Shown here: piece by piece, positions 3,138-57,503 of the stretch
Layout: each line of letters starts with the position of its first letter
How positions within the stretch are numbered: the stretch's first letter is position 1
DNA from: Stigmatella aurantiaca
GTDB taxonomy: Bacteria; Myxococcota; Myxococcia; Myxococcales; Myxococcaceae
Length of the DNA stretch: 64,000 nt
Assembly (NCBI RefSeq): GCF_900109545.1
Contig: NZ_FOAP01000008.1
Coordinates: forward strand, 186,001-250,000
Reading direction: 5' to 3'
Made by a program: the position numbers and the translations under genes
The notes under the pieces: generated by a model
What the model was told of the DNA's origin: nothing
What the model saw: only the letters and a program-made list of their open reading frames with translations
The model's database searches: none

Positions 3138-3152
3138 TACCTGAAAGACAGG

Positions 3153-6095: not shown

Positions 6096-6118
6096 GCGGG
6101 GGGCGGCAGCTTACCGGA

Positions 6119-7935: not shown

Positions 7936-7947
7936 GGGGCAACGGTA

Positions 7948-8847: not shown

Positions 8848-10151
8848 GGGGAGGAGGCGGGCTTGAAGCGGACGTCGACCCAGTAGTTGGCATCTTTATA
8901 GGAACTGGACGGGAAGCCACCGCTCGACGTGTAGAGGAAGACGCCGTTGCCCCCCACGCTGGCGCTGCCGGGCGCCGTGAGGTTGCCGCTGACCACCGCG
9001 TTCGTCAGTCCCGAGACGTCCCGGGCGAACTGCCCGTTCGAGGTGAAGTACGAGACCACGTAGATGGTTCCCGCGGTGACGGGGATGGGCGTGGGGAGCG
9101 GCGCCTCCTGCCAGCCCGGGATGCGCCCATCCTTCACCGGAACCTGGGCCAGGAGCGTGCCCGTGTTGCTCCACAGGTGGGCGACATAGCCATTGGCATT
9201 GCCCGTGCCCCGGTAGAACCGGAGGGCCTCGATGGTGCCACTGGCGTTGCTGCGGAACCGGACGCCCACTTCCACGGCGCGTGTGTCGTCGCCCTGGACG
9301 GCGGTGCCCGGGACGCGGTCTCCAAAGAGGGTCTGGCTCCACGGCAGGATGACGGTGGCGGTGACCGGACGGTGATCAGATTGGGAAGAGGCGTTCACCA
9401 CGCCGGCGGTCAGCGGGGAGGTCCACGCGGAGCCGAGCAGGACATAGTCGATGCGCTTGGTGGGGAAGCTGGCCGGAATGGTGTAGCCGCTGCCCGAGCC
9501 GCCGCGCGCCCAGGCGTCGGTGAACTGCTGGAGCAGGCTTGTGATGCTGGACTCGGAGGGACTGGCGTTGAGGTCTCCGCCGAGCAACGCCCAGGGCTTC
9601 CCAGCGAGGGCGGCCTTGATGTCCTCGGCCTGCTGGACGCGCTCCGGGGCGCCGGTGGTGCCGAAGTGGGTGACGGCCACGGGGATGAGGCGGGAGGGCT
9701 CCAGCTCCACCTCGAAGAGGGCGAGGACCCGCTGCTCGGCGGCGGAGCGCAGCGGAACGCGCTGGGCGGAGCGGATGGGGTAGCGCGACAGGAGCGCCAG
9801 TCCGTACTGGCCCGAGTCGTAATTGGTCAGTGAGGGAATGAAGGCATAGAACATGCCCGTGAGCTGACCCAGCCGGGCCGCCTGATCCACCTTGTTGGAC
9901 CGCACGGTGAGGACATCCACCTCCTGGAGCGCCACCAGGTCGGGCGCCTGCGCTTTGATGACGTTCGCGACGGTCTCCAGGCTGCTGAGCTCCCCGTGCT
10001 TGATGTTGTAGGTCATGAACCGCAGGCCCCCTCCGGGGGTGAGGGCCTGCGGCTGCTCACCCACTTGAGGATCCGGCTCGGTGGCTTCGGGCGGTGCACA
10101 GTGGGTGAGGGTGGTCATGAGGGTAAGCAGGAGCAGGGGACGGAGGGACAT
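8844..10151 (-). CDS. secreted endonuclease/exonuclease/phosphatase-family protein with C-terminal DUF4082-like domain
   Basis: The protein has 435 residues. The N-terminus MSLRPLLLLTLMTTLTHC is a lipoprotein signal with Cys18. Residues about 42-270 form an EEP fold: FMTYNIKHGE, the metal-binding Glu in LVALQEVD, catalytic GGDLNASPSE, IDYVLLG and the terminal SDHRPVTA. After it, about residues 275-432 resemble DUF4082, a beta-sandwich found attached to secreted proteins (FYRGTGNANGYVAHLW, ASVGGNGVFLY). The enzyme could be a nuclease, sphingomyelinase or phosphatase; the motif set does not decide. It is expected on the cell surface, possibly attacking prey DNA or lipids, which is inference. 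It is divergent from the Cys-rich lipoprotein gene with 62 bases between starts. Confidence 0.88.
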   Translation of the reverse strand: MSLRPLLLLTLMTTLTHCAPPEATEPDPQVGEQPQALTPGGGLRFMTYNIKHGELSSLETVANVIKAQAPDLVALQEVDVLTVRSNKVDQAARLGQLTGMFYAFIPSLTNYDSGQYGLALLSRYPIRSAQRVPLRSAAEQRVLALFEVELEPSRLIPVAVTHFGTTGAPERVQQAEDIKAALAGKPWALLGGDLNASPSESSITSLLQQFTDAWARGGSGSGYTIPASFPTKRIDYVLLGSAWTSPLTAGVVNASSQSDHRPVTATVILPWSQTLFGDRVPGTAVQGDDTRAVEVGVRFRSNASGTIEALRFYRGTGNANGYVAHLWSNTGTLLAQVPVKDGRIPGWQEAPLPTPIPVTAGTIYVVSYFTSNGQFARDVSGLTNAVVSGNLTAPGSASVGGNGVFLYTSSGGFPSSSYKDANYWVDVRFKPASSP

Positions 10152-10213
10152 GGCGGGGAACTCCGGGAGGCAACAATAGGCCGGGTGGGGGCGAGGTGGG
10201 TTAGACTGTGCTC

Positions 10214-12412
10214 ATGTATCGAGCCTGTGTGTTGGGGCTGTTTCTGAGTCTCGTGGCGTGCAAGGAGAAGGCTCCCGGGGAAGGGGCCATCCGGGTCTCC
10301 GTGAAGTACGGAACTTACGTGCCCGCCTGCCTCCGTGTCTCCGCCCGGGATGCGCAGGGCCATGAGGCCAGGACGGACATCCCCCGGGAGAAGTTCCAGA
10401 ACCCGGAGGCCCGGGAGGTCCGCGTCGCGGTGTTCCGCAAGCCGGAGTGGGACCGGGAGCTGTCGCTGGAGGTGTCCTCGTACCGGGCCGCCTCGGGGCA
10501 GGAGTGCGCGGGAGACCTCGTGGAGAAGCGCACCTCGGCGGCCCCCATTCCGGTACCGAGGGGAGAGTTCGCCATCTTCGATGCCGTGCTCGAAGCGCAG
10601 GACCAGGATGGTGACTCCTTCATCGCGTTGCCGGGGCTGGCCCAGGCGGATTGTGATGATGTGCGCAAGGATGTGTACCCGGGCGCTCCCGAGCAGTGCA
10701 GCGTCAACGTGGACTTCGACTGTGACGGCCTCAAAGGCTGTCAGGACGCGAAGTGCGTGGACAAGGCGTGTGACGATGGCAACGCCTGCACGACGGGAGA
10801 CCAGTGCAACGGCGCGCTCTGCCAGGGACAGGCGGTGCAATGCCAGAAGCCCACCGGCGTCTGTTTCACGGGCGCGGTGTGCAACCCCACCACGGGACAG
10901 TGCGACAACGTCCTGGCCCCCCCGGAGACGGTCTGTAATGACCAAGACCCCTGCACCGTGAATGACACCTGCGGGCCGCAAGGCCAGTGCTCGGGCCAGA
11001 GCAAGTCCTGCAACGCGCCGCCGACGGCGTGCTTCGAAGCCTCGGGGACGTGCGACGCCGTCAGCGGCGAGTGCCGGTATCCCTCCAAGCCCGCCGCCAC
11101 GGAATGCAGTGATGAAGACGCCTGTACGGTGAACGACCAGTGCAATGGCAACGGCATGTGCGGCGGACTGGCGACGCCCTGCCAGCCCTCCAGCACTTGC
11201 TTCCGAATCACCAGCGGTTGTGTGGCGCTCGGCAATTGCACCGAGGCCGTGGATCCGGCCAAGGTGAATACGGCCTGTCAGAAGGGCAATGGGCAGAGCG
11301 GCGTGTGCCGCGTCTCTGACGGAGCGTGCAGCTCCTTCCCCTACGTTCCGAGCAATTTTGATCCGGACACGATTCCTGACGCCAATATCGGCACTCTGAC
11401 GACTTCCGGTGCCGTCACCTTCGATTCAACGCCAGGCGCCATGAATCCCTGGGAGCCGCCTGGCCGCGTGACAGCCTCTCCCCCCATCACTGTCATTGCT
11501 CAGGCCAACGGTGCTCCGGATGCAGTGGTGCTCGCGGTGCGAAGCGTGAACTTGGGCGGAGACCTGAAACTCGTGGGGACGCGCCCCGTCATCCTGGCGG
11601 TGTACGGAGACGCCACGCTGAATCACCACATCCTGGCGAACAGTGTGTTGGGAGCATCCTCGGGCCCAGGCAGCAATCAGGCTTGTGGTGCCCGGCAAGG
11701 CGTGGATGGGACGTTGTCGGGGGAGGGAGGTGGGGGCGGTGGAGGGGGTGGCGCAACTGCGGGGGCTTCCGGCGGAAAGGGGTATTCCAGTGGGGCCACC
11801 GGGGGGGGCGCCGGAAGTCAGAGTCCCAGCGTCCGTGTTCCCCTTGTTGGCGGGTGCCCCGGCGGAAAAGGTGGCGGCACGGGAGGCCTTGGGGGGACAG
11901 GAGGCGGAGCGATTCAGATCTCTGTCTCAGGCACCCTCACGGTGGGGAAGAAGGTTACCGCCAGCGGCGGGGCGGGGGTTGGCGGGAATGCCAGCACCAG
12001 TGCCGCAGGAGGCGGCGGTGGAGGGGGGAGCGGCGGCCAGGTCACTTTGGAGGCCTTACGGCTGGTCCTCTCAAACTCAGCCCAACTGACCGCCAACGGC
12101 GGCGGTGGGGGCGAAGGGGGCGGCACATATCAAGGCGGTAAAGACGGTGATGATGGCTATACGTCCTCAGGCGATCCAGCCATGGGGGGACAAGGAAAAG
12201 CCTTGTTGGGGGGAAATGGCGGTACAGGAGGAGCGAGCGCAGGTCCGCTCCCCGTGGAAGGTTCCGTCGGAACCAATGATGCCATTGGTGGGGGGGGGGG
12301 GGGGGGGGGGGGCGGCGCGGTAGGATTCATCCACCTGAGGGCCGTGCGGCCCTGCGAAATCCACACCTCCAGCGTCCGCAGCCCCGAGCCTGTCCTGCAG
12401 TGCCCTCTGTAG
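10214..12412 (+). CDS. mosaic lipoprotein: MopE-like metal motif, Cys-rich repeats, Gly-rich tail
   Basis: The protein has 732 residues from ATG 10214 (a GTG at 10208 adds two residues). The signal peptide ends at LSLVAC. An Asp/Cys motif of the MopE type follows, with DQDGDSF, ADCDD, YPGAPEQC and DFDCDG. At least three Cys-rich units then follow the pattern CxDxDxCTxxDxC, for example CNDQDPCTVNDTC and CSDEDACTVNDQC. A beta-rich middle leads into a long Gly-rich region (about residues 500-700). A run of 23 G bases (12290-12312) encodes part of that region; loss of one G would bring a TAG at 12321-12323 into frame, and gain of one would extend the tail past 12412. It is a surface or secreted protein of unknown partner and is convergent with the transglutaminase gene. 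Confidence 0.82.
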   Translation: MYRACVLGLFLSLVACKEKAPGEGAIRVSVKYGTYVPACLRVSARDAQGHEARTDIPREKFQNPEAREVRVAVFRKPEWDRELSLEVSSYRAASGQECAGDLVEKRTSAAPIPVPRGEFAIFDAVLEAQDQDGDSFIALPGLAQADCDDVRKDVYPGAPEQCSVNVDFDCDGLKGCQDAKCVDKACDDGNACTTGDQCNGALCQGQAVQCQKPTGVCFTGAVCNPTTGQCDNVLAPPETVCNDQDPCTVNDTCGPQGQCSGQSKSCNAPPTACFEASGTCDAVSGECRYPSKPAATECSDEDACTVNDQCNGNGMCGGLATPCQPSSTCFRITSGCVALGNCTEAVDPAKVNTACQKGNGQSGVCRVSDGACSSFPYVPSNFDPDTIPDANIGTLTTSGAVTFDSTPGAMNPWEPPGRVTASPPITVIAQANGAPDAVVLAVRSVNLGGDLKLVGTRPVILAVYGDATLNHHILANSVLGASSGPGSNQACGARQGVDGTLSGEGGGGGGGGGATAGASGGKGYSSGATGGGAGSQSPSVRVPLVGGCPGGKGGGTGGLGGTGGGAIQISVSGTLTVGKKVTASGGAGVGGNASTSAAGGGGGGGSGGQVTLEALRLVLSNSAQLTANGGGGGEGGGTYQGGKDGDDGYTSSGDPAMGGQGKALLGGNGGTGGASAGPLPVEGSVGTNDAIGGGGGGGGGGAVGFIHLRAVRPCEIHTSSVRSPEPVLQCPL
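12290..12312. repeat. homopolymeric run of 23 G within a coding region
   Basis: A single G at 12290 is followed by 22 more, read in frame as Gly codons. Such tracts slip during replication. The published length could also be an assembly or sequencing error, since polymerase and base callers slip here too. The reading frame is intact at the length given. Confidence 0.9.
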
Positions 12413-12421
12413 TCCGGAGGG

Positions 12422-13942
12422 CTACGGCTTCACGGGGGTGGAAGGCTTGTCCTTCACTTCCATCACCTTGAGCTGGCCGATGAGCGGCGTGATCTCCGCG
12501 TTGCCCTCGCGGCCCACGCCGAAGTGCGTCGCGTCCGCCACGGGCTGGTTGAACGTCGGGTCCATCTGCGTCCACTCGCCCACGTAGGCTTCGATCCACT
12601 CATGCCAGTAGAACGCGGGCACCCCGTCCTCGTTCACCATGTAGACCACCCCATCCACCCGCCGCGCCGGAATCCCCGCCGCGCGCAGCAGCGCCACCGC
12701 CAGGAGCGAGTGCTCCGTGCAGTCGCCCTTTTTCTGCCGCAGCACGTCCGTGGCCCGGTCCGCGCTCACCCCGTAGTCCTTCGCCAGGTTCGTGGCCACC
12801 CAGGTGACGATCTTCTTCGACGCCGCGTACGCGTCCTTCTCCGTGCCCACCAGCGTCTTGGCCAGCTTGCGGATCTCTGCGTTGTCGCTCTCGACGATGA
12901 TGGTGGCCTTGAGGTTCTCGCCCCCGTCGGGGTCCGCCACCGGCAGCGGCTTGAGGTTCGCGGGCTTCGGGAAGTCCGACAGCAGCGTCACCTCCACGCG
13001 CCCCTCCGGCAGCTTCACGTACTTCTGCCGGTAGCTGTCCTGCTGGAACTTCTCCGGCAGCCCCGTCATCACCAGCACCGCCCGGCCCGGCACCGCCCGC
13101 GCCTCGACGGGCAGCTTCTTGGGCAGCACGATGCGCGTGAGCCCGAACACCTCCACCACGTCCAGCCGCTTGGCCACCGCCTCGGTCTCGGCCCGCGCCT
13201 TCATCGTCTGGCCGAAGTCCACCTCCACCATCTCCCCGTCCTCGGTGAAGTAGGCCGTCACCGGCACCTTCTCCTTCTCGGAGATGGTCTGCGCCCGGCT
13301 CAGCCGCACCTTCACCCCGCGAACCATCCGCTCCTCGGCGGGCTCCGTCGTGGTGGTGACCTTGTAGCCTTGGAGGTCCGTCCCATCCGTGACGATGCCC
13401 TCCACCGCCGCCTTGCGGAAGATGGCCACGCGCGCCTGGTCCGCGTCCTCGGTCTTCTCGGCGCTGGCCGCCACCGTCAGCACCTCGTCGGGCTGGCCGG
13501 GCCGCTTGCGCACCACCTTCATGCCGCCCGGCGTGTTGGTGGCTTCCAGCCGCTGCGTGCCGCCATCCCCGCGCTGGTCCACCACGAACGAGAGCATCCG
13601 TCCCCCGGGCTTCGCCTCGTACACGCGCTCCTCGCGGTGCACGCGCTCGGAGAGCTTCGTGCCCACGGTGGCCTTGAAGACCAGCTCGGAGACGGCCCGC
13701 ACCTGGTCCTTGCGCCCGGGCACCAGCGCCACGTCCGTGAAGAAGTACCCGACCTTCTTGTCCATCAGGTACAGCCCCAGCCACTCGCCCCCCTTGGGGC
13801 GGGGCACCTGGAGCACATCCGAGACGGTTTGAGGGGCCGCCGCGCGGGAGGCGGAAGCGGGTGCCTGGGCCAGCACCGGGGCCGCGCTCAGCAGCGCGGC
13901 GGTGAGCAGCCAGAGGGCGTGGGAACGGGAGCGGGTCATCAC
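12422..13942 (-). CDS. secreted transglutaminase-like (transglutaminase-core) protein
   Basis: The protein has 506 residues with a signal peptide (HALWLLTAALLSAAPVLA). The first 330 residues are beta-rich and resemble the N-terminal part of secreted transglutaminase-core proteins. The catalytic domain lies near the C-terminus: Cys in KKGDCTEHSLL, His in YWHEWIEAYV and Asp in QMDPTFNQ form the Cys-His-Asp triad. This fold can act as protease, peptidoglycan hydrolase or cross-linking enzyme, and the substrate is not evident. Codon choice is typical of the region. It is convergent with the Gly-rich lipoprotein, only nine bases from its stop, and lies 37 bases downstream of the GNAT gene on the same strand. 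Confidence 0.88.
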   Translation of the reverse strand: MMTRSRSHALWLLTAALLSAAPVLAQAPASASRAAAPQTVSDVLQVPRPKGGEWLGLYLMDKKVGYFFTDVALVPGRKDQVRAVSELVFKATVGTKLSERVHREERVYEAKPGGRMLSFVVDQRGDGGTQRLEATNTPGGMKVVRKRPGQPDEVLTVAASAEKTEDADQARVAIFRKAAVEGIVTDGTDLQGYKVTTTTEPAEERMVRGVKVRLSRAQTISEKEKVPVTAYFTEDGEMVEVDFGQTMKARAETEAVAKRLDVVEVFGLTRIVLPKKLPVEARAVPGRAVLVMTGLPEKFQQDSYRQKYVKLPEGRVEVTLLSDFPKPANLKPLPVADPDGGENLKATIIVESDNAEIRKLAKTLVGTEKDAYAASKKIVTWVATNLAKDYGVSADRATDVLRQKKGDCTEHSLLAVALLRAAGIPARRVDGVVYMVNEDGVPAFYWHEWIEAYVGEWTQMDPTFNQPVADATHFGVGREGNAEITPLIGQLKVMEVKDKPSTPVKP

Positions 13943-46594: not shown

Positions 46595-47188
46595 CTACAG
46601 GTCGATCTCGGAGCCGCGCTTGCCCGGCGTCTCCTCGTCCGGGGGCGGGAGGCGCTCTTCCTCGGGCGGCAGGGGCTCCTCGCCCAGGTCCATGGGGGGC
46701 GCCTCCTCGTCCGGGAGTGCCTCCAGTCCCGGGGGCAATTCGTCGTCCATCGGGGGCTCCATCAGCGGGATGGGCTCCCGGCCGGGCACCTCCACCTCGA
46801 GCCGCTCGAAGGTCCAGGTCCCCCCCACCGAGAGGGCTTCGACGCGCAGGGTGCCGCTGGCCTTGGGGCCCTCGACGGGGATGTTGAGGCTGGCGCGGCC
46901 CTCGCCGCTGTCCGTGTTCACCGAGCCGCGCGGAAAGCCGAACTCGATGGGCGTGCCCAGCACCTCCTGCACCTCGGGGTTCTCCGAGACGAGCGCCACG
47001 GCCTGCTGGTAGGCGTCCGAGGACTTGATGGCGCTGGAGATGAAGTAGAGGCCCAGCGCCCCGAAGCAGCCGCACATGAGCACGGGTGTCAAACAGCCAA
47101 CAGGAACGACCCACTTCCAATTGCGGCCCCACCAGCCCTGCCGCGGCGCCATGTTGCCTTCCGGCATCGTGTTCATCACCCCTCCCAT
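46595..47188 (-). CDS. Coa1-like membrane-anchored protein
   Basis: The 197-residue protein starts at ATG 47188, seven bases below GAGGGAGGG; ATG 47176 is a possible second start. One membrane helix (residues 28-52, VGCLTPVLMCGCFGALGLY) is followed by a domain with SDAYQQAVALVSENPEVQEVLG, LNIPVEGPKASGTL and GTWTFERLEVEV, which matches the Coa1 family of cytochrome oxidase assembly factors. The 60-residue tail is Pro/Glu-rich. Coa1 homologues help assemble haem-copper oxidases in mitochondria, but bacterial relatives have no proven role. It is divergent from the PqqD-like gene, 239 bases away. Confidence 0.75.
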   Translation of the reverse strand: MGGVMNTMPEGNMAPRQGWWGRNWKWVVPVGCLTPVLMCGCFGALGLYFISSAIKSSDAYQQAVALVSENPEVQEVLGTPIEFGFPRGSVNTDSGEGRASLNIPVEGPKASGTLRVEALSVGGTWTFERLEVEVPGREPIPLMEPPMDDELPPGLEALPDEEAPPMDLGEEPLPPEEERLPPPDEETPGKRGSEIDL

Positions 47189-47335
47189 CGTCGCCGCCCT
47201 CCCTCGGGGGACCGGGCGCTTTCCCGTCATAGCGGTTTCACGGGCGGGGCCCCAGCCCTCAAAGTAAAGCGGGGGCCGAGTTTCTGGGATTCCGGCCAAG
47301 TCGTTGATCCGGACGTGGACTGGGGGGGCCAGGAG

Positions 47336-47365
47336 TTGGCCGGGGCAAACCTTCGCGGCTAGCAT
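47336..47365 (+). promoter_or_regulatory. possible sigma-70-type promoter for the peptide-modification locus
   Basis: TTGGCC (47336-47341) and TAGCAT (47360-47365) are 18 bases apart, and GTG 47428 starts 62 bases beyond. The match is weak. The rest of the 239-base gap (47189-47427) holds no gene or clear repeat that I can see. Confidence 0.3.
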
Positions 47366-47427
47366 GCTCCCAGATTCCGAGAGGCCGGGAAGCTCCAGGC
47401 CGGGGGGCGGGCCTCCGGGAGATTCAT

Positions 47428-47778
47428 GTGGCTGGATTCGTTTCCGACAAAGATGGAGCGGCAGGGCCTGGGACGCCGGGTCTGGACGCGCTGCGCGCCG
47501 TGCCCCGGCTCCATCCGGAGACGGGGGTACAGCGCGTGGGCGGGCGGTTGCTGGCGGCGGGGCCCGATGAGCACCTGCACACCTTCGAGGATGCGCGGGG
47601 CCAGGTGTCCGAGGTGGCCGAGCGCATCATGGAGCTGGTGGATGGCCGGCGGACGGTGGCGGCCATCGTGGCGGTGCTGTGTGACGAGTTCGAGGTGGAG
47701 CCCCAGGCGTGTGAAGCCGACACGGTCGCCTTCCTGCGGCTCCTCGTGGCGAAGAAGGTGCTGGTGCTCGGGCCGTGA
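47428..47778 (+). CDS. PqqD-like peptide-recognition (RRE) protein
   Basis: The 116-residue protein starts at GTG 47428 after GGGAGA. Residues about 25-114 match the PqqD fold: a beta hairpin (VQRVGGRLLAAGPDEHLHTF), the helix SEVAERIMELVDGRRTVAAI, and the winged-helix end CEADTVAFLRLLVAKKVLVL. This fold binds leader peptides of ribosomally made, modified peptides. The N-terminal 25 residues are extra and low-complexity. It is the first gene of a plus-strand set: 65 bases to the giant lipoprotein, then a small Cys peptide, an HprK-like kinase and an S24/S26-GNAT fusion. No PQQ genes or radical SAM enzyme are in the window. Confidence 0.85.
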   Translation: MAGFVSDKDGAAGPGTPGLDALRAVPRLHPETGVQRVGGRLLAAGPDEHLHTFEDARGQVSEVAERIMELVDGRRTVAAIVAVLCDEFEVEPQACEADTVAFLRLLVAKKVLVLGP

Positions 47779-47843
47779 GGCTCCTTGCGCTGATGTCGCG
47801 AGCGGCGGGCGGAACGCCTGACGCTGGAGAGGGTGGGAGACGA

Positions 47844-50800
47844 ATGCGCCGATCGGTATGGCAATGGCTGTTGATGGGGCTCGCGCTGTGGAGTGCGTCC
47901 GGATGCAGCTGCGGGGAGCCACCGGTGGAGTCGGAGCTGGAGGTGGCCTTCGAGAAGCCCACGGACGGCCAGCGCCTGGTGGTGTCCGACGATGAGGACG
48001 CGGCCCAGGACGGCTTCCAGCACGAGGTGGTGGTGCGCGCCCGGGACACCTCGGACCGGCCCTTGAAGCTCGCGGGCGCGAAGCTGGAGCTGCGCACGCC
48101 CTCCGAGCAGGGGTGGACCGAGGGGCCCACGGCCATCCTCGAAGGGGACACGGCGCGCTTCCCGGCGGTGCTGCTGCAGCCGCGCACCAACGTGCTGCAG
48201 GTGACGGTGGAGGAGGCGGGCTCGCGGCGCACGGCCACCCAGCGCATCAGCGTCACGGTGACGTCGGAGCCGCCGTCGGTGGACCTGTCGAAGCCGGCTG
48301 AGGGCCAGGTGCTGCTGGAGGCGGATGACGCGGATCCGCAGATGCCCGGCTACCAGATGCTCTTCAGCCTGAACGCGGTGGGCCTGGCCGGACGCAAGGG
48401 CACGCTCTACTGCGAGCAGGCGTGTGGGGTGCCCCCCACGGAGTTCACCGTGTCTGGCACGGGGCTCACGCAGGTGCCGGTGACGCTGGCCCAGTCGGCG
48501 TGCGAGTCCCAGGAGGCCCAGTGCTACGCGGTGATTCGCAACGGCGAGGACGAGGTGACCTCCGGCCGCCGCCGCATCCGCCTGGACACGGTGGCGCCGC
48601 GCGTGGAGGTGGCCTCGCCCGTGGGGGCGGTGGCGTCCACGACTTTCCGGGTGGAGGCCACCGTGGGCTGTACCGAGCCCGGGGTGCTGGCCACCCTGTC
48701 CCGGCCGGGCGAGCCGGACCTCTCCTCGCCCGTCATCTCCGGCGGGGTGACGTTCCCCGCCGTCACCGTGCCCGTGGATGGCGAGTACCGCTTCACGCTG
48801 CGCGTCTCGGACGCGGGAGGCAACGTCACCACCCGCGAGGTGCCCATCACGGTGGCCAGCACCGTGCCGGTGCTCAAGCTCGTGGTGCCGGAGACCATCC
48901 CCGTGCCTCCGGTGAATGGCCCGTTGGGCGAAGGCGTGCAGGCCGTGGTTCGGGTCCAGGCGGACACGTTGCCGCCCGGCACGGAGGTGCGGTTCTTCAC
49001 CAGCGTCACCGGCACGTTCGCTCACCCCCAGCGGGCGGTGACGGACGCATCGCGCGGGGCGTCCTTCACGGCGCAGCTCGCGGGCGGGGCCAACTCCGTC
49101 CAGGCCTGCGTGCGCAATGCCGCGGGGCTGGAGCAGTGCCAGGCCCAGGCCATCACGGTCAACACGGGCCTGCCCGTCTGCCGCATCATCTCTCCGGTCA
49201 ACGGCGTTCAGGTCTCCCCCCTGGGGGAGGACACGCTGGTCCGCGTCGAGTCGGGGCCTGGCCCCGTCATCGTGGTGGCGCTGGATGCGCAGGGCCAGGA
49301 GCGCGCGCGGAGCGAGGGCCCTGCGTCCTCGGGCTCGGCCGGGGTGCCGCTCAAGCTGAGCGGTGATGGCGCGTACCAGCTCCAGGCGCTCTGCCCCGGG
49401 GGCGCGGTGAGCCAGGTGCTCGCGCTGGGGGTGGACACCACGCCGCCCGCGCTGGCCTTCCACGTGCGCGGCCTGCCCGACACGGAGACCGTCCTGGGCG
49501 CGGGGCTCAACGACACGTCCCTGGCGCCGGGCATCCAGGTGGCCCTGGAGGTGAACACCGAGCCGTACGCGTCGGTGCTCGTCACCGGGTGCGCCATGGC
49601 CGCGGGCGTGGCGGGCCAGGCCGATGCGCGGGGCACGCTCGTGCTGCGCGACGTGTCCGTGCCGTCCAGCGGGACGTGCGAGCTGAAGGTGGCCTCCACG
49701 GACCTGGCGGGCAACACCACCGAGCGGGGCCAGGCGCTGACGCTGGCCTTCTCCCCGGGCTCGCTCGCCTTCGCGGCGCCCGCCATCGGCCGCTACCTGG
49801 GGGCCATGGATGGCATCGTGCTGCCGGCCGGTGGGCTGAGTGTGCCCGTCACGCTGAGCCTGGAGACCCCGGCGGCGGGCACGCTGCGGCTGCTGCGCGG
49901 CTCCACGGAGATCGCCTCGGTGCCGGTGGCCGCGTCCGACCGGACGAAGGTCTTCAGCTCGGTGGAGCTGGAGGAGGGGGCCAACGTGCTGCGCGCCGAG
50001 CTCATCGGCCCCGGGGGCACGGTGGCCTGCGCCACGGTGCTGCTCCTGGTGGACACGCAGCCGGGCAACATCGCCCTGGAGATTCCCGCCGCCTCGCCCG
50101 CCCCGAGCTACGTCGTCCTCTCCGACGTCACGCCCGAGGAGTCCGGCATCCAGGCGCCGCTCAAGTACGCCGCCAATGGGCGCTCGGCGAACGCCGTCGT
50201 GGACATCTGCGCGAGCGTGGCGCCCAGCCTGGATGCCGCGCCCTGCCGGGATGGCTCGGGGTGGTACACCCTGGCGGCCAACGTGCCGGCCTTCACCCCG
50301 GACTTCACCTATCCCGATGGGCGCTATGCCCTGAAGGCCGTGCTGGATGACGGGGCCATCTCCGTCTCCCAGGCGGTGACCATCACGGTGGACAGCACCG
50401 AGCCGGTGGTGCGGGCCGTGGAGCTGGTGGGGGACAGCAATGGGGACCTGCGGCTGAACGCCGCCGAGCTGCCCTCGGGGCCCGTGCAGCTGCGGCTCAC
50501 CATCGATGGGGTGGAGGATGGGCGGCCCGTCCAGGTCCGCAGCGCCGCCAACCCCGGCATCGTCTATGGCCAGGGCAACGCCAGCGGGGGCCAGGTCCGG
50601 GTGTCCCTGGATGCGATGCCCACGGGCATCGAGGCGGACTACGCGCTCGTCGTCACGGTGACGGATGCGGCGGGCAACCAGAACCGGGTGGCCAACCCCA
50701 CGCCGTTCTACCCGCTCAACACGGCGTCCTTCTTCGCGTTCCGCCTGGACCGCGTGCTGCCCTCGCTGGTGGTGAGCGCGCCCACGCGCGCCGAGTTCGG

Positions 50801-53648
50801 CCTCGCGGATGACAGCTCGTCCGCGGCGGGCTTCCAGCTCCAGGTGACGGCCAACACCAGCGCGGACGTAGGGGACAAGGGCATCCGCATGTCGGTGAGC
50901 CCCGGGGGCGACGCGGTGGAGCTGACCCCGCTGCTGTTGGCGGCCACGCACGAGTTCACCCTGGCGGGCGCGGGGCGCACGGAGCACGCCATCACCGTGG
51001 CGGCCGTGGACACCTCGGGCAACGTGTCGACGGTGGTGCGCACCGTGACCGTGGACCGGGAGGCGCCCACCGTGACGCTGGTGGCCCCGCTGGCGGGCAC
51101 CATCTACAACAACACGGACCTGCCCGTTCAGGTGAGCGTCAGCGGCGGGGACGTGAACACGGTGAGCATCTTCTCCCAGGTGGGGAGCTCGCCGGCCACC
51201 GTGGTCGGCACCCTGCCGGTCACCGCGGGCTCCGCCCAGGGCACGCTTAACTTCCCCAGCGGGGTGCAGACCATCTCGGCCGTGGCCCTGGACACCGCCG
51301 GCAACCGGGGCTCCGATACCCACGAGGGCGTGGACGTGCGGATTCCCGGCTGCGCCATCACCCTCACCACCCCCAGCGCGCCGGTGGCCACGCTGCTCGC
51401 CCTGGATGACCTGGATCCTTCGACGCCGGGCTTGCAGTACCGCCTGGTGGGCGTCACCCCTGCGTGCACGGGCCGCCAGGTGGTCCTCTACCGGGGGACG
51501 TCCTCCACGCCGGTGGACGCCACCCCGGCGAATGGGTCCACGGGCGAGTTCTCCTTCGACGTGACGCTCGAGGACGGTGAGCAGACGCGCCTGACGGTGG
51601 AGGTCTTCAACGCCGCGAATCAGCGCTCCGTCGACTTCGTGGACGTGACGGTGGACATCACGCCCCCCGTCATCACCTCCATCTCCCCGGCGCCCACGGC
51701 GCTCTACTTCGTCGCCAACACCAACGCCTACCTCTTCCCGGTGCCCGCGCCGGACCGCGTGGTGGACCTGGCCGCGGGCGGGGATGCCAACGCGGTGTTC
51801 ACGCTCACCGTGGTCCAGGGCGTGGGCAGCACGGTGCGGGCCTTCTACAAGGGCGAGCCCGTCTCGTCGGAGTTCGGGGTCGCCGCCTCGCCGGAGACCC
51901 TGGAGGTGCCCGTGACGCTGCCGCACGGCACGGACGGCACGCTGGAGGTGCGCGTGGTGGATGCCTCCGGGAACACGGCGCGCCACACCGTGGCCGCCAC
52001 CGTGGACGTGGTGCCCCCGAGCGCGCCCACCGTGACGCTGGCGCTGGTGGCCGGCAAGGAGCGGGCTGCCCAGGTGAAGGTGACCTGGACGGCCAGCGGG
52101 GACGATGGGCTGTCCGGCATGCCCGTGGGGTATGACCTGCGGTGGACGGTCAACGCCCAGCTGCTCAACGGCATCGAGAACGAGGCGTCCTTCTTCAGCG
52201 CGCGGGTGAAGCAGGAGACCGGGGCGCTTCTGCCCGCCACCTCCACGTCCTACACGCTGACGGTGCCGCCCCTGGCCCGCTACTCCATCCAGCTCCGGCC
52301 CCGGGACGAGATCGGCAACTACGCGGCCTTCGCCGTCCAGCCGCCGCTCGACAACTTCTGGCGGCAGATGACGGTGACGAACCCCGGCGTGGCGGGCAAC
52401 AGCTACGCCACGTACATCGCCTCGCGGGGAGACCTGAACGCCGACGGCCGGGAGGACCTGGTGGTGACCGGCCTGCTGGGCACGCCGGGCGCGGCGTACG
52501 TGTACTACGGCTCGAGCGACCCGGTGGCGGTGCCGCCGGTGCGCCAGGACCTGACGGTGCCCGAGACGGACTCCCAGGCCTACGGCAACGACTTCGACAT
52601 CGGCGATGTGGGCAACGGCACCGCGGACCTGGTCCAGGATCTGGTGGTGGGCGTGCGCGGCTGGAGCGTCAACGTCGGCCGGGCCTTCCTCTACTTCGGC
52701 CGCAAGGGCCAGGTGCTGGACACCTCGGCGCCCATCGAGTTCCGCCACGACACCAACATCGGCGGGGCCGCGCTGGGCGGCACCGTGAAGATGATCCAGG
52801 ACATCTCGGGCGATGGGCTCCACGAGGTGCTCCTCAGCTCGCACGGTGAGACTCCCGGAAAGGTCTACCTCTTCTACGGACGCTCGCCGGACGCCTGGCG
52901 CGCCCTGGGCACGGGCTGCACCGCCACCGCGGCCTGCGTCGTGCCCACGAGCAAGTCAGACAAGGTCTTCACGGCCCCCACGGGGATGGTCTTCTTCGGC
53001 CGCTCCCGCGGCTATGCCCGCCTGGGGGACATCACGGGCGATGGCGTCGCGGACTTCACCCTCCCGGCCTCGCACGAGAGGGTGAACTCGCTCTACGTTT
53101 ACTCGGGCGCCACCGTGCGCGCGATGGGCCGCAACGTGTCCACCACGGACGCGCTCCAGGTGCTCCACCAGGGCCCGGATACCGAAGGCAACTCGCAGAA
53201 CGGCTTTGGCACCGAGGCCTTCGGCGGGGTGAACCTGGTGGGGGGCCCGGGGCTGGACCTGGTGGCCTCCGCCGCCACCCAGAACAAGGTCTTCGTGTTC
53301 CGGGATGGGGGACCGTCGGGCTTCACCTCGGCCCCGCTCGTCATCGGCGGCGGCGGCCGGTTCGGCAATGCCCTGGCCCTGGGGGACCTGAATGGGGACG
53401 GGCGCGCCGACATCGCCGTGGGCCAGAACATCCTCGGGATGAACGCCGCGGCCGTCTTCTACAACCAGGGCACGCCCGGGGCCGAGTTCGACACGGCCCA
53501 GGAGAACGGCTTCTGGCAGTCCAAGCTGGCGTCCACGACCTCGTTCGGAATCAGCCTGGCCCTCTTGGACTTCAATGGGGATGGAAAAATGGACCTGGCG
53601 GTCGGCGATAGTCAGTCGAACCCAGCCCGAGTCGTGGTGTATTACTAA
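47844..53648 (+). CDS. giant surface lipoprotein: Ig-like modules and C-terminal seven-blade FG-GAP propeller
   Basis: The 1934-residue protein starts at ATG 47844 after a GGTGGGAGA site and has a lipobox ending in Cys21 (LWSASGCSC). GTG 47775, which overlaps the PqqD-like stop, is in frame but would hide the signal peptide. Residues 35-1500 hold Ig-like modules, often joined by VDxxxPxV linkers, and six copies of a DDxxxxxxGxQ element. From about 1510 to the end are seven FG-GAP-like blades with calcium loops such as GDLNADGREDL and LDFNGDGKMDL, forming an integrin-like beta-propeller. It is likely a calcium-dependent surface adhesin. The downstream peptide gene begins seven bases after its stop. 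Confidence 0.88.
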   Translation: MRRSVWQWLLMGLALWSASGCSCGEPPVESELEVAFEKPTDGQRLVVSDDEDAAQDGFQHEVVVRARDTSDRPLKLAGAKLELRTPSEQGWTEGPTAILEGDTARFPAVLLQPRTNVLQVTVEEAGSRRTATQRISVTVTSEPPSVDLSKPAEGQVLLEADDADPQMPGYQMLFSLNAVGLAGRKGTLYCEQACGVPPTEFTVSGTGLTQVPVTLAQSACESQEAQCYAVIRNGEDEVTSGRRRIRLDTVAPRVEVASPVGAVASTTFRVEATVGCTEPGVLATLSRPGEPDLSSPVISGGVTFPAVTVPVDGEYRFTLRVSDAGGNVTTREVPITVASTVPVLKLVVPETIPVPPVNGPLGEGVQAVVRVQADTLPPGTEVRFFTSVTGTFAHPQRAVTDASRGASFTAQLAGGANSVQACVRNAAGLEQCQAQAITVNTGLPVCRIISPVNGVQVSPLGEDTLVRVESGPGPVIVVALDAQGQERARSEGPASSGSAGVPLKLSGDGAYQLQALCPGGAVSQVLALGVDTTPPALAFHVRGLPDTETVLGAGLNDTSLAPGIQVALEVNTEPYASVLVTGCAMAAGVAGQADARGTLVLRDVSVPSSGTCELKVASTDLAGNTTERGQALTLAFSPGSLAFAAPAIGRYLGAMDGIVLPAGGLSVPVTLSLETPAAGTLRLLRGSTEIASVPVAASDRTKVFSSVELEEGANVLRAELIGPGGTVACATVLLLVDTQPGNIALEIPAASPAPSYVVLSDVTPEESGIQAPLKYAANGRSANAVVDICASVAPSLDAAPCRDGSGWYTLAANVPAFTPDFTYPDGRYALKAVLDDGAISVSQAVTITVDSTEPVVRAVELVGDSNGDLRLNAAELPSGPVQLRLTIDGVEDGRPVQVRSAANPGIVYGQGNASGGQVRVSLDAMPTGIEADYALVVTVTDAAGNQNRVANPTPFYPLNTASFFAFRLDRVLPSLVVSAPTRAEFGLADDSSSAAGFQLQVTANTSADVGDKGIRMSVSPGGDAVELTPLLLAATHEFTLAGAGRTEHAITVAAVDTSGNVSTVVRTVTVDREAPTVTLVAPLAGTIYNNTDLPVQVSVSGGDVNTVSIFSQVGSSPATVVGTLPVTAGSAQGTLNFPSGVQTISAVALDTAGNRGSDTHEGVDVRIPGCAITLTTPSAPVATLLALDDLDPSTPGLQYRLVGVTPACTGRQVVLYRGTSSTPVDATPANGSTGEFSFDVTLEDGEQTRLTVEVFNAANQRSVDFVDVTVDITPPVITSISPAPTALYFVANTNAYLFPVPAPDRVVDLAAGGDANAVFTLTVVQGVGSTVRAFYKGEPVSSEFGVAASPETLEVPVTLPHGTDGTLEVRVVDASGNTARHTVAATVDVVPPSAPTVTLALVAGKERAAQVKVTWTASGDDGLSGMPVGYDLRWTVNAQLLNGIENEASFFSARVKQETGALLPATSTSYTLTVPPLARYSIQLRPRDEIGNYAAFAVQPPLDNFWRQMTVTNPGVAGNSYATYIASRGDLNADGREDLVVTGLLGTPGAAYVYYGSSDPVAVPPVRQDLTVPETDSQAYGNDFDIGDVGNGTADLVQDLVVGVRGWSVNVGRAFLYFGRKGQVLDTSAPIEFRHDTNIGGAALGGTVKMIQDISGDGLHEVLLSSHGETPGKVYLFYGRSPDAWRALGTGCTATAACVVPTSKSDKVFTAPTGMVFFGRSRGYARLGDITGDGVADFTLPASHERVNSLYVYSGATVRAMGRNVSTTDALQVLHQGPDTEGNSQNGFGTEAFGGVNLVGGPGLDLVASAATQNKVFVFRDGGPSGFTSAPLVIGGGGRFGNALALGDLNGDGRADIAVGQNILGMNAAAVFYNQGTPGAEFDTAQENGFWQSKLASTTSFGISLALLDFNGDGKMDLAVGDSQSNPARVVVYY

Positions 53649-53653
53649 GGAGA
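53647..53653 (+). promoter_or_regulatory. ribosome binding site overlapping the stop codon of the giant lipoprotein
   Basis: AAGGAGA at 53647-53653 overlaps the stop TAA (53646-53648) and leads to ATG 53656. The arrangement favours coupled translation of the small peptide. Confidence 0.7.
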
Positions 53654-53655
53654 CC

Positions 53656-53793
53656 ATGGCGACGACGGTGCAGCCGGTGACGGTGGACAAGAAGAAGGCG
53701 TACGCGCCTCCCCAGGTGCGCTCGGAGCGGATTCTCGTTCCGGACCTCTTCACGCCCAGCTGCATCATCGACCCCGAGACGGGGGCCTGCTGA
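53656..53793 (+). CDS. 45-residue Cys-ended peptide, candidate RiPP precursor
   Basis: The peptide starts at ATG 53656 behind AAGGAGA and has a Lys-rich turn DKKKAY followed by YAPPQV (Tyr16, Pro19, Val21), which matches the YxxPx[LV] leader motif recognised by PqqD-like RRE proteins in lasso peptide systems. The next element, SERILVPDLF, is hydrophobic and helix-like. The C-terminal 11 residues begin at Ser35, have Cys36 and Cys45 at the two ends, and contain Asp39, Glu41 and Thr42, so they could form a disulfide or take Ser/Thr modification. The gene lies between the giant lipoprotein and an HprK-like kinase. It is too short for automated gene finders and could be missed; the ribosome site and fit to neighbours support it. 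Confidence 0.7.
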   Translation: MATTVQPVTVDKKKAYAPPQVRSERILVPDLFTPSCIIDPETGAC

Positions 53794-53811
53794 GGGAAGG
53801 CGGGTGCCCGG

Positions 53812-54579
53812 ATGCGGCGGCTGCGGTTCGGGGACTGGGGCGTGGCGGTGGACGAAGCGCTCCTCTCCCAGGTGGGCGCACGGTGCGCGCTGGGGCCGTT
53901 TCTCGCGGAGGCGGGCCCCCCGCACCTGTCGCTCCAGGCAGAGGCCCTGACCGAGGGACAGGGCACGCCCCTGGACCCTCGCCGGCCCTTGGGCCCCCGG
54001 TTCCGCATCGAAGGAGACGTGGTGCGCGTGGAGCCCCCCCAGGCCTCTCTGGACACCGAGCTGGCGCTGCGGGTGGGCCTGCAGCTCGCCACCCTGCGCC
54101 AGGGCGGCCTGCTGCTGCACGGCGCGGGCGTGGCGTTCCAGGCGCAGGCGGTGGTGGCGCTCGGGCCCAGCGGGGCGGGCAAGTCCACCTTCACCCGGCT
54201 GTGTGCCCGCGAGGCCGGGGCCGAGGTGCTCTCGGACGAGGTGGTGGGGCTCTACCCTGGGGCGCGCGTGGAGGGCAGCCCGTTCTGCTCGGACCTGGAC
54301 CTGCCCTCGGCACGGGCGCGGGCGCGGCTGGCCGCGGTGCTCTTCCTGGAGAAGGGCGGTGAGGAGCGGCTGGAGGCGGTGTCCGCGCAGGAGGCCATTC
54401 CGGCGATGATGGCGCAGGTCTTCCGGCCGCTGCCGGGGGAGGCGTCGCAGGGCGAGGTGCTCCAGCGGCTGGTGCGCATCACCGAGGGGGTGGCGCTGCG
54501 CCGTTTCATCTTCCGGAAGGACGCCGCCGCGGCGGGCTTCGTGAGGGACTGGCTTCATGGTTGGCACGCCTCCGGTTGA
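53812..54579 (+). CDS. HprK-like (serine kinase-fold) protein
   Basis: The 255-residue protein has HGAGV (His103), the P-loop LGPSGAGKST (Gly118-Thr126) and the acidic motif LSDEVV (Asp142, Glu143), in the order of HPr kinase/phosphorylase catalytic domains. The N-terminal 95 residues are unlike the HprK sensor domain. It lacks the usual HPr substrate context and PTS genes. Kinases of this shape phosphorylate small peptides in some lasso peptide clusters, such as paeninodin. It starts 18 bases after the peptide stop and overlaps the next gene by 23 bases, so the peptide is a likely substrate, which is inference. Confidence 0.85.
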   Translation: MRRLRFGDWGVAVDEALLSQVGARCALGPFLAEAGPPHLSLQAEALTEGQGTPLDPRRPLGPRFRIEGDVVRVEPPQASLDTELALRVGLQLATLRQGGLLLHGAGVAFQAQAVVALGPSGAGKSTFTRLCAREAGAEVLSDEVVGLYPGARVEGSPFCSDLDLPSARARARLAAVLFLEKGGEERLEAVSAQEAIPAMMAQVFRPLPGEASQGEVLQRLVRITEGVALRRFIFRKDAAAAGFVRDWLHGWHASG

Positions 54580-55531
54580 TCTCGCGGCCTTCGTCGAGGC
54601 CTCGCCCCCGGGGCGGCGGCTCTGGCTGCGCGGGGCGGGCCGGAGCTTGTACCCGCTGCTGCGCAGTGGAGACTCGGTGCAGGTGCTGCGCTGCGGGCCG
54701 GAGGCGCTGTCCCGGGGCGATGTGGCGCTCGTGAGGGTGGGCCGCCGGCTCATCGCGCACGTGGTGGTCTCCACCGGGCCGCTGGTGACCGCGTCGCTCT
54801 TGGGCAAGGGGGACCCGGCGGGGGTTCCGCTGGGGCGGGTGACGGCGCTGCGCCGGGGGTGGTGGATCCTCCCGCTGCCCCGGCTGACGCGGTCTTCGCT
54901 CTTTCTGGGCCAGCGGCTGGCGTCCACGCTGTGGTCCCGTCCCCTGGCCCGGGGCGTGGCCCGGCGGCTGCGGGACTTCGCCTTCTCCGGGTGGTCGCGC
55001 CCCATGCGGACGCGGTGGCTGGGGCGGCTCGAGGTGCGCCTGCTCCGGGCCGAGGACCTGGATGCGCTCCTGGTCTTCGCCGGTGAGCGGCTGCTGGTGT
55101 CCTCGGCCTTCCTGCGCCGGCAGCTCCTGGGCCGGTGGGCGCGGGAAGGGGGCGCGATGGGGGCCGCGGCGGGCGCCTTCGACGCGGCGGGGCGCATGTG
55201 CGGCTTCGCCTTCCTGGACAGCTACCGCGAGGAGGGGCTGGCGCTGGACGGGCTCTGGGTCCGCTCGCTGGTGGTGGCGCCGAGGGCCCGGCGGATGGGG
55301 GTGGCCCATCGGCTCCTGGGCTGCTTGCTGGAGGCGGCGCGGAAGCAGGGCGAGCGGCGCATCTACGCGGACGTCGATGAGGACAACGTCACCTCCGTGA
55401 GGACGTTCCGGCGGCGGGGGTTCCGCTTCGCTTCCCCCGAGCTCATCCGGCGCGTCAATGCCGAGTGGGACGCCTCGGGGGGCAGCAAGCCCCTGGTGGC
55501 GCTGGAGCGCATCGTGGATGGCCATGAGTGA
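54557..55531 (+). CDS. S24/S26-peptidase-like domain fused to GNAT acetyltransferase
   Basis: The 324-residue protein has an N-terminal domain (residues about 20-110) with GRSLYPLLRSGDSV (Ser30), the catalytic Ser motif of S24/S26 peptidases, and the strand RGDVALVRVGRRLIAHVVV where the catalytic Lys would lie in the usual KR position; here Ala67-His68 occupy it, so the peptidase may be inactive or non-canonical. Residues 165-320 form a GNAT domain with LWVRSLVVAPRARRMG and YADVDEDNVTSVRTFRRRGF. Such a fusion in one chain is unusual. It overlaps the HprK-like gene (23 bases) and the transporter gene (8 bases). Leader removal plus acylation of the small peptide would fit, but is inference. Confidence 0.78.
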   Translation: MVGTPPVDLAAFVEASPPGRRLWLRGAGRSLYPLLRSGDSVQVLRCGPEALSRGDVALVRVGRRLIAHVVVSTGPLVTASLLGKGDPAGVPLGRVTALRRGWWILPLPRLTRSSLFLGQRLASTLWSRPLARGVARRLRDFAFSGWSRPMRTRWLGRLEVRLLRAEDLDALLVFAGERLLVSSAFLRRQLLGRWAREGGAMGAAAGAFDAAGRMCGFAFLDSYREEGLALDGLWVRSLVVAPRARRMGVAHRLLGCLLEAARKQGERRIYADVDEDNVTSVRTFRRRGFRFASPELIRRVNAEWDASGGSKPLVALERIVDGHE

Positions 55532-56441
55532 GGGAGCGTCCACGCCGGAACGGCGCGCGCAGCTCCAGGCGGACGGGGCGCTGGTGCTGCTCACCGTGCT
55601 CTGGGGCACCTCCTTCCTGGTGGTGAAGGATGCGCTGGCCTATGCGGACCCGTTCTCGTTCCTCGTGCTGCGGTTCGGGGTAGGGGCCTTGGTGCTGAGC
55701 GCCGTGGTGGGACGGCGGCTGCTCTCCCGGGAGAACCTGAAGCGCGGGGCCCTGCTGTCCCTGGTCCTCTTCAGCGGCTACCTGTTCCAGACGCTGGGGC
55801 TGGCGCACACCTCCCCGGCGCGCTCGGCCTTCATCACCGGGCTGTGCGTCCTCTTCGTCCCACTGTTCTCGCTGGTGCTCTTTCGTCAGGTTCCGCGCCT
55901 CCCCACGCTGGTGGGGGTGGTGCTCTCGGCCGTGGGGCTCTACTTCTTCACCCGCGCGGACACGGCCGCCTCCGAGGCCCTCTCCCCGGGAGATCTGCTC
56001 ACGCTGCTCGGCGCGGTGGGCTACGCCCTCCACATCACCCTGACCGCGAGGGTCGCGCGGAAGGAGGGGGCGGGCGCGCTCGTCGCCGTGCAGCTCTGGG
56101 GGGTGGCGCTGCTGTCGGCGGCGTGCCTGCCCTTCGTGGAATTCCGGGTGGTGGTGTCCGAGGCCCTCATCGGCGCGGTGCTCTTCTGCGGCATCGTCAC
56201 CAGCGCCCTGGCGATCAGCGTTCAGACGTGGGCCCAGGCGCGCACGAGCGCCGTGCGCGCGGCGCTCATCTACGCGCTGGAGCCGGTGTTCGCCTCGCTC
56301 TTCTCGGTGTCGCTGGGGTACGAGACGCTGGGCCCCCGGGAGTGGGTGGGCGGCGGCCTCATCGTGCTGGGCGTGGGGGTGGCGGAGGTGGGCGCCGCCG
56401 TGTGGGACCGCTGGCGCGGCCGGGCCCTGGCCAGGGCCTGA
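55524..56441 (+). CDS. EamA (DMT-superfamily) membrane transporter
   Basis: The 305-residue protein starts at ATG 55524 (ATG 55518 is also possible) and has ten hydrophobic segments in two EamA halves, with LLTVLWGTSFLVVKDAL at the start of the first and GDLLTLLGAVGYALHITL at the start of the second. LIYALEPVFASLFSVSLGYE is the usual conserved end. Family members export metabolites, amino acids or drugs. Its overlap with the GNAT fusion could make it the exporter of the peptide set or an unrelated neighbour; no evidence decides. Confidence 0.9.
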   Translation: MSEGASTPERRAQLQADGALVLLTVLWGTSFLVVKDALAYADPFSFLVLRFGVGALVLSAVVGRRLLSRENLKRGALLSLVLFSGYLFQTLGLAHTSPARSAFITGLCVLFVPLFSLVLFRQVPRLPTLVGVVLSAVGLYFFTRADTAASEALSPGDLLTLLGAVGYALHITLTARVARKEGAGALVAVQLWGVALLSAACLPFVEFRVVVSEALIGAVLFCGIVTSALAISVQTWAQARTSAVRAALIYALEPVFASLFSVSLGYETLGPREWVGGGLIVLGVGVAEVGAAVWDRWRGRALARA

Positions 56442-56528
56442 CGTTTCGCAGGCAGGGCGGACGGGCGGGCGAGCGTGGGGAGAGAAGGGCCCCAACGGCC
56501 CCCGGGCGCGCTATATCCAGGCACCCCC

Positions 56529-57503
56529 ATGAGCGTCGAGCTGCGGAACACCGGCCTTCACTTGACGGGTACCCCGCTGGCGCTGGATGCGATGCGCAAG
56601 ACGCCGCTGTCCTTTGTCAGCCATGGGCACTCGGACCACATCGCGCGCCACGAGCGGACCATCGCCACGGCCGCCACGCTGCGCTTCATGACCCACCGGC
56701 TGGGCCGGGTGAAGGACCCCGTGCCGGTCTCCTACAACCAGCCGTTCGCGCTGGGCCCGCTGTCGCTGGAGCTGCTCTCCGCGGGCCACATCCTGGGCAG
56801 CGCCCAGCTCCGGGTGGTGCGGGGAGACGGGCGGCGCATCGTTTATACGGGGGACCTGAACGTCACGCCCTCGCTCACCGCGGAGCCGGTGCAGGTGGCC
56901 GAGTGCGACACGCTCGTCATCGAGGCCACGTTCGGCCACCCGCGCTACCGCTTCCCGCCGAAGGACGAGGTGCTGGGCGCGGTGGAGACGTGGGTGCGCC
57001 AGCAGCTAGAGCGGGGTGTGGTGCCCGTGCTGCTGGGCTATCCGCTGGGCAAGAGCCAGGAGGCGATGAAGTACCTGTCCGGGCGAGGCTTCCCGCTGGT
57101 GGCGCACACCTCCATTTATGAGGTGACGCGGCTCTACGGTGAGCTGGGCGTGGCCATCGAGCCCGTGCGGTGCTTCGAGGGGACGGTGAATCCTGGCGAG
57201 GTGCTCTTCTTCCCGCCCCACCAGGCCCGCTCCGGGGCCCTGGCGCCCCTGTGGCCGCGCGCCACGGCGGTGCTCACCGGCTGGGCGTTGGACCCGGGCG
57301 CCGCGTACCGCTATGGCGCGCAGGTGGCCTTTCCCCTGTCGGACCACGCGGACTGCCCCTCGCTGGTGAACTACGTGAAGGCCACCGGGGCCCGGGAAGT
57401 CATCACCCACCACGGCTTCGCGGAGGAGCTGGCCCGGCTGCTGCGGGAGGACGGCATCGACGCGCGCACGCTGGGCAAGCCCCAGCAGCTCGCGCTCTTC
57501 TGA
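56529..57503 (+). CDS. metallo-beta-lactamase/beta-CASP-type nuclease-like protein
   Basis: The 324-residue protein starts at ATG 56529. Zinc motifs are VSHGHSDHIARH, AGHILGSAQL, YTGDLNVTPS and, near the C-terminus, PLSDHADCPSL; the order is that of the exonuclease-type MBL proteins associated with RNA 3' processing or DNA ligase operons. The beta-CASP insert is reduced. No ligase lies nearby. It probably cleaves nucleic acid in the cytoplasm. The frame is open upstream to 56475 without a ribosome site. Confidence 0.88.
   Translation: MSVELRNTGLHLTGTPLALDAMRKTPLSFVSHGHSDHIARHERTIATAATLRFMTHRLGRVKDPVPVSYNQPFALGPLSLELLSAGHILGSAQLRVVRGDGRRIVYTGDLNVTPSLTAEPVQVAECDTLVIEATFGHPRYRFPPKDEVLGAVETWVRQQLERGVVPVLLGYPLGKSQEAMKYLSGRGFPLVAHTSIYEVTRLYGELGVAIEPVRCFEGTVNPGEVLFFPPHQARSGALAPLWPRATAVLTGWALDPGAAYRYGAQVAFPLSDHADCPSLVNYVKATGAREVITHHGFAEELARLLREDGIDARTLGKPQQLALF

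Follow-up and report, generated by a model that had tools for sequence, protein, structure and literature searches.

Is the 45-codon frame at 53656-53793 (forward strand) of this Stigmatella aurantiaca DNA a gene, and if so, what becomes of its product? The window analyzed here is the whole stretch of 64,000 nucleotides. The frame translates to MATTVQPVTVDKKKAYAPPQVRSERILVPDLFTPSCIIDPETGAC, followed by a stop codon. A sequence-only reading had described the product as a leader/core precursor, and the residues it listed (YAPPQV at 16-21, Thr33, Ser35, Cys36, Asp39, Glu41, Thr42 and Cys45) are those of the translation. The ribosome site is likewise in place: an AAGGAG runs over the TAA that closes the preceding gene, and 3 nt separate it from the ATG. 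The start of an HprK-like kinase gene lies 18 nt downstream of the frame's end. The frame, the proposed parts of its product and its neighbors are as follows.

47428 to 47778, forward strand: PqqD-family protein, a candidate discrete RRE (PF05402, 47.5 bits against a cut-off of 23.4)
47775 to 53648, forward strand: giant FG-GAP/Ig open reading frame of 1,957 aa (1,934 aa from the likelier ATG at 47844), with Ig-like domains and C-terminal FG-GAP repeats; predicted lipoprotein
53656 to 53793, forward strand: precursor peptide of 45 aa, with proposed leader 1-32 and proposed core 33-45
53701 to 53718, forward strand: YAPPQV, residues 16-21, the proposed RRE-binding motif, its Y and P unchanged in all 16 aligned rows
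53752 to 53790, forward strand: proposed core TPSCIIDPETGAC, residues 33-45, with Ser35 as core Ser3 and Cys36 and Cys45 paired (from the spacing to Tyr and cysteine parity; inferred boundary)
53812 to 54579, forward strand: HprK-like P-loop kinase of 255 aa (model, fold matches and invariant motifs)
54557 to 55531, forward strand: protein with an S24/S26-peptidase-like N-terminal domain (invariant triad S30, H68, D86) and a C-terminal GNAT domain (PF00583, 48.8 bits)
55524 to 56441, forward strand: EamA-family transporter (PF00892, 115.7 bits) of uncertain membership, overlapping the preceding gene by 8 nt

The short motif alone is frequent by chance. A bare [YW]xxPx[hydrophobic] pattern occurs in 190 of 3640 short ORFs (35-80 aa) of the fetched loci, about 5%, and by itself is weak evidence; the frame is nonetheless conserved in place. 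At E<=0.1 the peptide query (P0001) matches 19 of the order's 145 genomes, its own genome counted, and the regions of the 18 others were fetched. In 16 of these, a homologous frame is flanked by the FG-GAP gene on one side and the HprK gene on the other; the other two (L035 in G122 and L040 in G068) are weak matches with neither FG-GAP gene nor cassette and were set aside as chance. Two apparent paralogs in the same genome were dismissed likewise, L002 being out of frame over other ORFs and L003 carrying two internal stops. NCBIfam holds no family for the window peptide or for the ten other peptides searched, and at E<=0.01 a profile of the peptide reaches 21 of the phylum's 195 genomes, spread over 9 of 90 genera.

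Rather than lacking conservation, the frame is kept in place in relatives (16 of 18 regions), with dN well below dS. Against the homologs in L023, L024 and L025, dN is 0.030, 0.040 and 0.040 and dS is 0.208, 0.208 and 0.132, respectively; against L026 the values are 0.099 and 1.08. All replacements relative to L023-L025 fall within residues 4-17 and none within 18-45. A regulatory or non-functional frame, for instance one that couples translation of the HprK gene, might be read from the stop 18 nt upstream of the HprK start and from the chance frequency of the motif, but conservation at the level of residues, dN below dS and the invariant Y, P, C, D and P columns across 16 aligned peptide rows leave this reading scarcely credible. 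The 45-codon frame is confirmed as a genuine gene under purifying selection.

The anatomy of the product was examined in 32 peptides from the phylum, with positions counted from the motif Tyr. Lys or Arg occupies -3 in 29 of 32 and -2 in 29 of 32, Pro is found at +3 in all 32, Val, Ile or Leu at +5 in 30, and Lys or Arg at +6 in 23. Ser or Thr stands at +7 (Ser23 in the window) in 26 of 32 peptides, a hydrophobic pair follows near +15/+16, and +19, which is core 3, is Ser or Thr in 16. Across genera, the leader is more conserved than the tail. The YxxP motif and the two tail cysteines, whose conservation the sequence-only reading had proposed to check by aligning small frames, are kept in relatives.

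The precursor assignment is supported by an RRE-type YxxP leader beside PqqD and HprK-like genes; the cleavage site proposed earlier, after residue 34, was moved to after Phe32. The new position follows from the distances in lasso-type leaders, where Tyr, Pro and Leu stand at -17, -14 and -12 (Duan et al., 2023; PMC10368454). With Tyr16 set at -17, the core becomes TPSCIIDPETGAC, Thr33 is core residue 1 instead of Thr(-2), and Ser35 is core Ser3; a Thr(-2) appears only if the core starts at 35, and under Tyr(-17) that residue is Leu31. Since Tyr lies at -16 in LPP precursors, which shifts the cut by one, the boundary can be placed to within about two residues, and the window core would span residues 33-45.

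Cysteines mark the tail. From +15 onward they number two, four, six or eight in 30 of 32 peptides; the exceptions are L104, with three, and L106, with none. Among the 13 peptides with more than two, 12 have an even number. Cysteine makes up 105 of 771 core residues (from +15) and 3 of 956 leader residues. The 32 rows are kin, so that any p-value on this parity would be rough. An even number of cysteines suggests disulfides formed in an oxidizing compartment. By inspection, the window peptide has no signal sequence. A hypervariable kin-recognition tag is disfavored, as the window peptide shares its tail, residue for residue, with those of L023, L024 and L025.

The gene order PqqD/FG-GAP/peptide/HprK/S26(-GNAT) is kept in 16 of the 18 fetched P0001-match regions. 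The PqqD-family protein is the single PF05402 match in the whole genome. Its D98 and F102 are invariant in 17 of 17 sequences, have a spacing like that of D70 and F74 of LppB (from the available text of PMC13381572), and align with the D and F of TbiB1. By the PF05402 score and these pocket residues, the cassette has a candidate for the discrete RRE of LPP RiPPs.

The kinase was modeled with AlphaFold at a pLDDT of 93.7. Foldseek returned PEPCK and HprK/P entries (2qmh, 1kkm and 1ko7), and the comparison with PEPCK gave Z 13.7 and rmsd 4.5 over 234 aligned residues. H103, the P-loop GxSGAGKST and S141-D142-E143 are invariant in 17 of 17 sequences. Fold and motifs place here the HprK-like kinase with P-loop that is a feature of LPP, its activity being predicted. 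The best NCBIfam match is HprK_rel_A (TIGR04352), with the window kinase likewise adjoining a PqqD-type protein, but it scores 22.7 bits against a cut-off of 200.

In the next protein, the N-terminal third bears the triad and the C-terminal half is GNAT. S30, H68 and D86 are invariant in 24 of 24 rows, and they align with the GDSM, HR and GDN of more typical S24/S26 proteins from a second type of cassette described below; they can also be set against S29, H68 and D93 of LppS (PMC13381572, available text). Of the 24 rows, 13 match PF00717, and the window protein is one of those that do not. Pfam recognizes nothing in its S26 part, for which phmmer against PDB sequences likewise gave only chance-level matches. 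A SipW-like peptidase with Ser/His/Asp, a further LPP feature, is proposed from sequence for a row that lies below detection. In the fold search of the S26-GNAT model, GNAT folds filled the lists, RimI/Ard1-like and with Z about 16; the GNAT part appears to resemble RimI/Ard1 N-terminal acetyltransferases, though GNAT folds are much alike.

The giant ORF overlaps the PqqD gene when taken from 47775, and matches FG-GAP (65.8 bits) and Big_13 (49.4 bits) in Pfam. Its N terminus has a hydrophobic stretch ending in SASGC, which we take to be a plausible lipobox. Of 35 such N termini, a lipobox regular expression recognized 21 but missed that of the window, so the lipoprotein call was made by eye. 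The FG-GAP gene is present in 16 of the 18 fetched regions, and the four further giant proteins scanned with Pfam (L089, L101, L104 and L105) all proved to have FG-GAP repeats. It is gene order that suggests a partnership between this protein and the peptide. The EamA gene is syntenic in 16 of 18 regions, at times more than 1 kb away. The sequence-only reading is supported on the precursor and its YxxP leader; it had passed over the S24/S26-like peptidase candidate, the giant lipoprotein and the cysteine parity.

A literature search for such a cassette found only the LPP and Bsf papers nearby; in the searched text of the RRE-Finder and structure-based RRE papers, the terms 'kinase', 'HPr' and 'S24' do not occur. 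According to the available portion of the LPP paper (Popov et al., 2026; PMC13381572), LPP systems combine an RRE, an HprK kinase and a SipW-like peptidase and are reported to be restricted to Bacillota. LppK phosphorylates core Ser3 and does not accept Thr, LppS is a Ser/His/Asp SipW-like peptidase whose cleavage requires the RRE, and in the structure the RRE holds the leader strand. The precursor motif is YxxPxVLxHQxIxFETxxS, with Tyr at -16 (PMC13381572).

Judged by the same portion, the window cassette shares with LPP the discrete RRE, the HprK-like kinase, a candidate S26B/SipW-like Ser/His/Asp leader peptidase, the YxxPxV leader, a variable tail and the absence of a cyclase. It differs in belonging to Myxococcota rather than Bacillota and in its peptidase-GNAT fusion, constant FG-GAP lipoprotein gene and paired-cysteine cores. 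Window-type peptides read YxxPxV[RK][ST]E where LPP has its longer motif; the window precursor has YxxPxV and a Ser/Thr near the border, whereas LxHQxIxFET was not seen in it. An NTP transferase and an MsbA-like transporter belong to LPP, and neither turned up when the eight proteins encoded from 46595 to 57503 were scanned with Pfam; PF14907 matches sit on other contigs of the genome. The cassette looks like a myxobacterial LPP-like variant of a kinase/RRE peptide system, and is not filed as an LPP member because no NTP transferase or MsbA-like transporter was found in it. Three elements are new in this reading: a beta-propeller lipoprotein as a constant neighbor, cysteines that come in pairs, and a peptidase fused to GNAT. 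On contig C31 (G000, 61056-65889; L129 and L130), away from the cassette, two NTP_transf_5 genes lie 4 kb apart.

Bsf, as far as the available text describes it, has a leader defined by Tyr(-17), Pro(-14) and Leu(-12) (PMC10368454). It resembles the window cassette in pairing an RRE with an HprK-like kinase, BsfK, which acts on core Ser3 and accepts Thr, in a hydrophobic residue at -2, and in an FG-GAP repeat protein gene at the cluster border, which its authors presume not to be involved. Unlike the window cassette, Bsf owns a lasso cyclase, a cysteine peptidase B2, an ABC transporter and a nucleotidyltransferase. Paeninodin-type lasso peptides, as covered in the available text of PMC13381572 and PMC10368454, also have an RRE and an HprK-like kinase, but differ in their cyclase and B2, WxxP leader and phosphorylated C-terminal Ser.

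A rival reading is a true lasso peptide whose macrolactam synthetase is encoded elsewhere and whose ring would close between the core N terminus and Asp39 or Glu41. The YxxPxV leader, an AsnB-like protein on another contig, and the two acids, which a core beginning at 33 would have as residues 7 and 9, agree with it. However, PF00733 matches lie on C11, C2 and C29 and none on the window's contig C8, which bears out the earlier remark that no macrolactam synthetase is present at the locus; PF13471, the B2 domain, has two weak genome matches, neither in the cassette. Moreover, core residue 1 would be Thr, and relatives keep paired cysteines rather than a ring acid at 7-9. With cyclase and B2 absent from the cassette, the lasso reading was rejected as highly improbable. 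Elsewhere in the window, a weak transglutaminase-core PF13471 match (20.5 bits) lies at 12590-12760 on the reverse strand (L128), in a 508-residue open frame.

The frame probably encodes a RiPP-like precursor that is processed by PqqD, the kinase and the S26-GNAT protein and acts with the propeller lipoprotein. Conservation, purifying selection, gene order, active-site residues and cysteine parity lead us to infer the following chemistry. PqqD would bind the leader via Tyr16, Pro19 and Val21 and hand the peptide to the HprK-like kinase, which would phosphorylate a hydroxyl residue where the tail begins; Ser35, core Ser3, is the likeliest. RRE binding is perhaps not strictly required, as Ala exchanges of Tyr(-17), Pro(-14) and Leu(-12) did not stop phosphorylation in Bsf (PMC10368454, available text). 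The S24/S26-like Ser/His/Asp domain would then cut off the leader, most likely after Phe32, and the GNAT joined to it may acylate the N terminus of the core thus exposed. Signal-peptidase-like enzymes do not usually cut after Phe, which counts against this site. The core (about TPSCIIDPETGAC) would be exported, its two cysteines forming a disulfide, and would either work together with the giant beta-propeller lipoprotein encoded in the operon or act on it.

Core 3 is Ser or Thr in only half of the peptides (16 of 32), which counts against phosphorylation there, and is Thr in the relatives L032-L034. The +7 Ser/Thr (Ser23), being more conserved (26 versus 16 of 32), could be the true kinase site. 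In that case phosphorylation of Ser23, or of some other residue in the leader, might serve as a switch, with an unphosphorylated tail being released; this is very unlikely, given that the leader strand is RRE-bound in the LPP structure and that the characterized LppK and BsfK act on core Ser3 (available text of PMC13381572 and PMC10368454).

It is also conceivable that the peptide is not modified at all, but is a small exported cystine peptide or an accessory subunit of the FG-GAP lipoprotein, with PqqD as a chaperone and the kinase as a regulator only. The adjoining beta-propeller gene, the even cysteine count and the identical tail among close species would suit such a peptide. It is an unlikely reading in view of a leader that fits the RRE motif and varies less from genus to genus than the tail does, the invariant P-loop, His and SDE motifs of the kinase, and the lack, by inspection, of a signal sequence.

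The kinase offers a second route into the phylum. Its profile matches 127 of 195 genomes, mostly remotely, and 40 match regions were fetched, picked from more than 100 listed places. A candidate YxxP peptide is found in 25 of the 40 (L087-L091, L095, L096, L098, L101, L102, L104-L112, L118 and L122-L126); L116 is a doubtful 26th, and none is found in L092-L094, L097, L099, L100, L103, L113-L115, L117 and L119-L121, which counts against the precursor reading. In a strict test, the start of a YxxP ORF had to lie within -25 to +60 nt of the stop of the giant gene that follows PqqD. This holds in 13 of 16 HprK-found loci, and in 10 of 12 when the four also found by the peptide profile (L102, L105, L106 and L107) are left out, against 49 of 668 other ORFs above 300 codons. 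L105 and L109 miss the test by a peptide start 31-34 nt inside the giant gene, and in L104 the peptide is further downstream. Over all loci the count is 29 of 32, of which 16 (window included) are circular, stemming from the peptide itself or a search with it; L029 stands outside, having no single giant ORF over the length limit behind its PqqD.

Eight loci (L110, L111, L112 and L122-L126) contain the second type of cassette, which follows the same logic. Its peptide, Y.PPA[IV][LV]WEQ.FV.LA, lies just before or over the HprK start, with a gene of about 1,030 codons (longer in L123) upstream. An S24/S26-like match occurs in 7 of the 8 loci and a weak PqqD match in 6; one of the S24 peptidases passes the PF00717 cut-off (44.5 bits). 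The large protein of L110, the single one scanned, ends in a C-terminal PQQ_2/BamB beta-propeller.

Some loci have features of their own. The cassette in L110 is flanked by hisS and miaA-like genes, and in L087 an ABC-2 membrane protein gene (3147-3932) lies directly 5' of PqqD, a possible exporter in that lineage. In L116, PqqD forms the C-terminal end of an 863 aa ORF (5616-8207), which is followed by a Gly/Cys-rich YEPP peptide candidate (9281-9478) overlapping an ORF with an HprK-like domain. L115 (about 7640-10343) has a 543 aa radical SAM ORF beside an HprK-like match, an FGE-sulfatase/VWA protein and a TonB receptor.

A wider reading, offered tentatively as one possibility, is a phylum-wide two-part surface system that joins a RiPP pathway (RRE, HprK kinase and S26-type peptidase) to a giant lipoprotein with a C-terminal propeller. 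The phosphorylated, disulfide-paired peptide would be a ligand dedicated to this lipoprotein or a part built into it, the core would change along with the type of propeller (FG-GAP or PQQ/BamB), and the FG-GAP gene beside Bsf would reflect the same partnership. Systems of RRE, HprK-like kinase and SipW-like peptidase were first described in 2026, in Bacillota only and with roles unknown. If the reading is true, a syntenic myxobacterial version with a constant protein partner would provide a concrete hypothesis for the function of these peptides, and the FG-GAP gene by the Bsf cluster would turn from a presumed bystander into a candidate partner.
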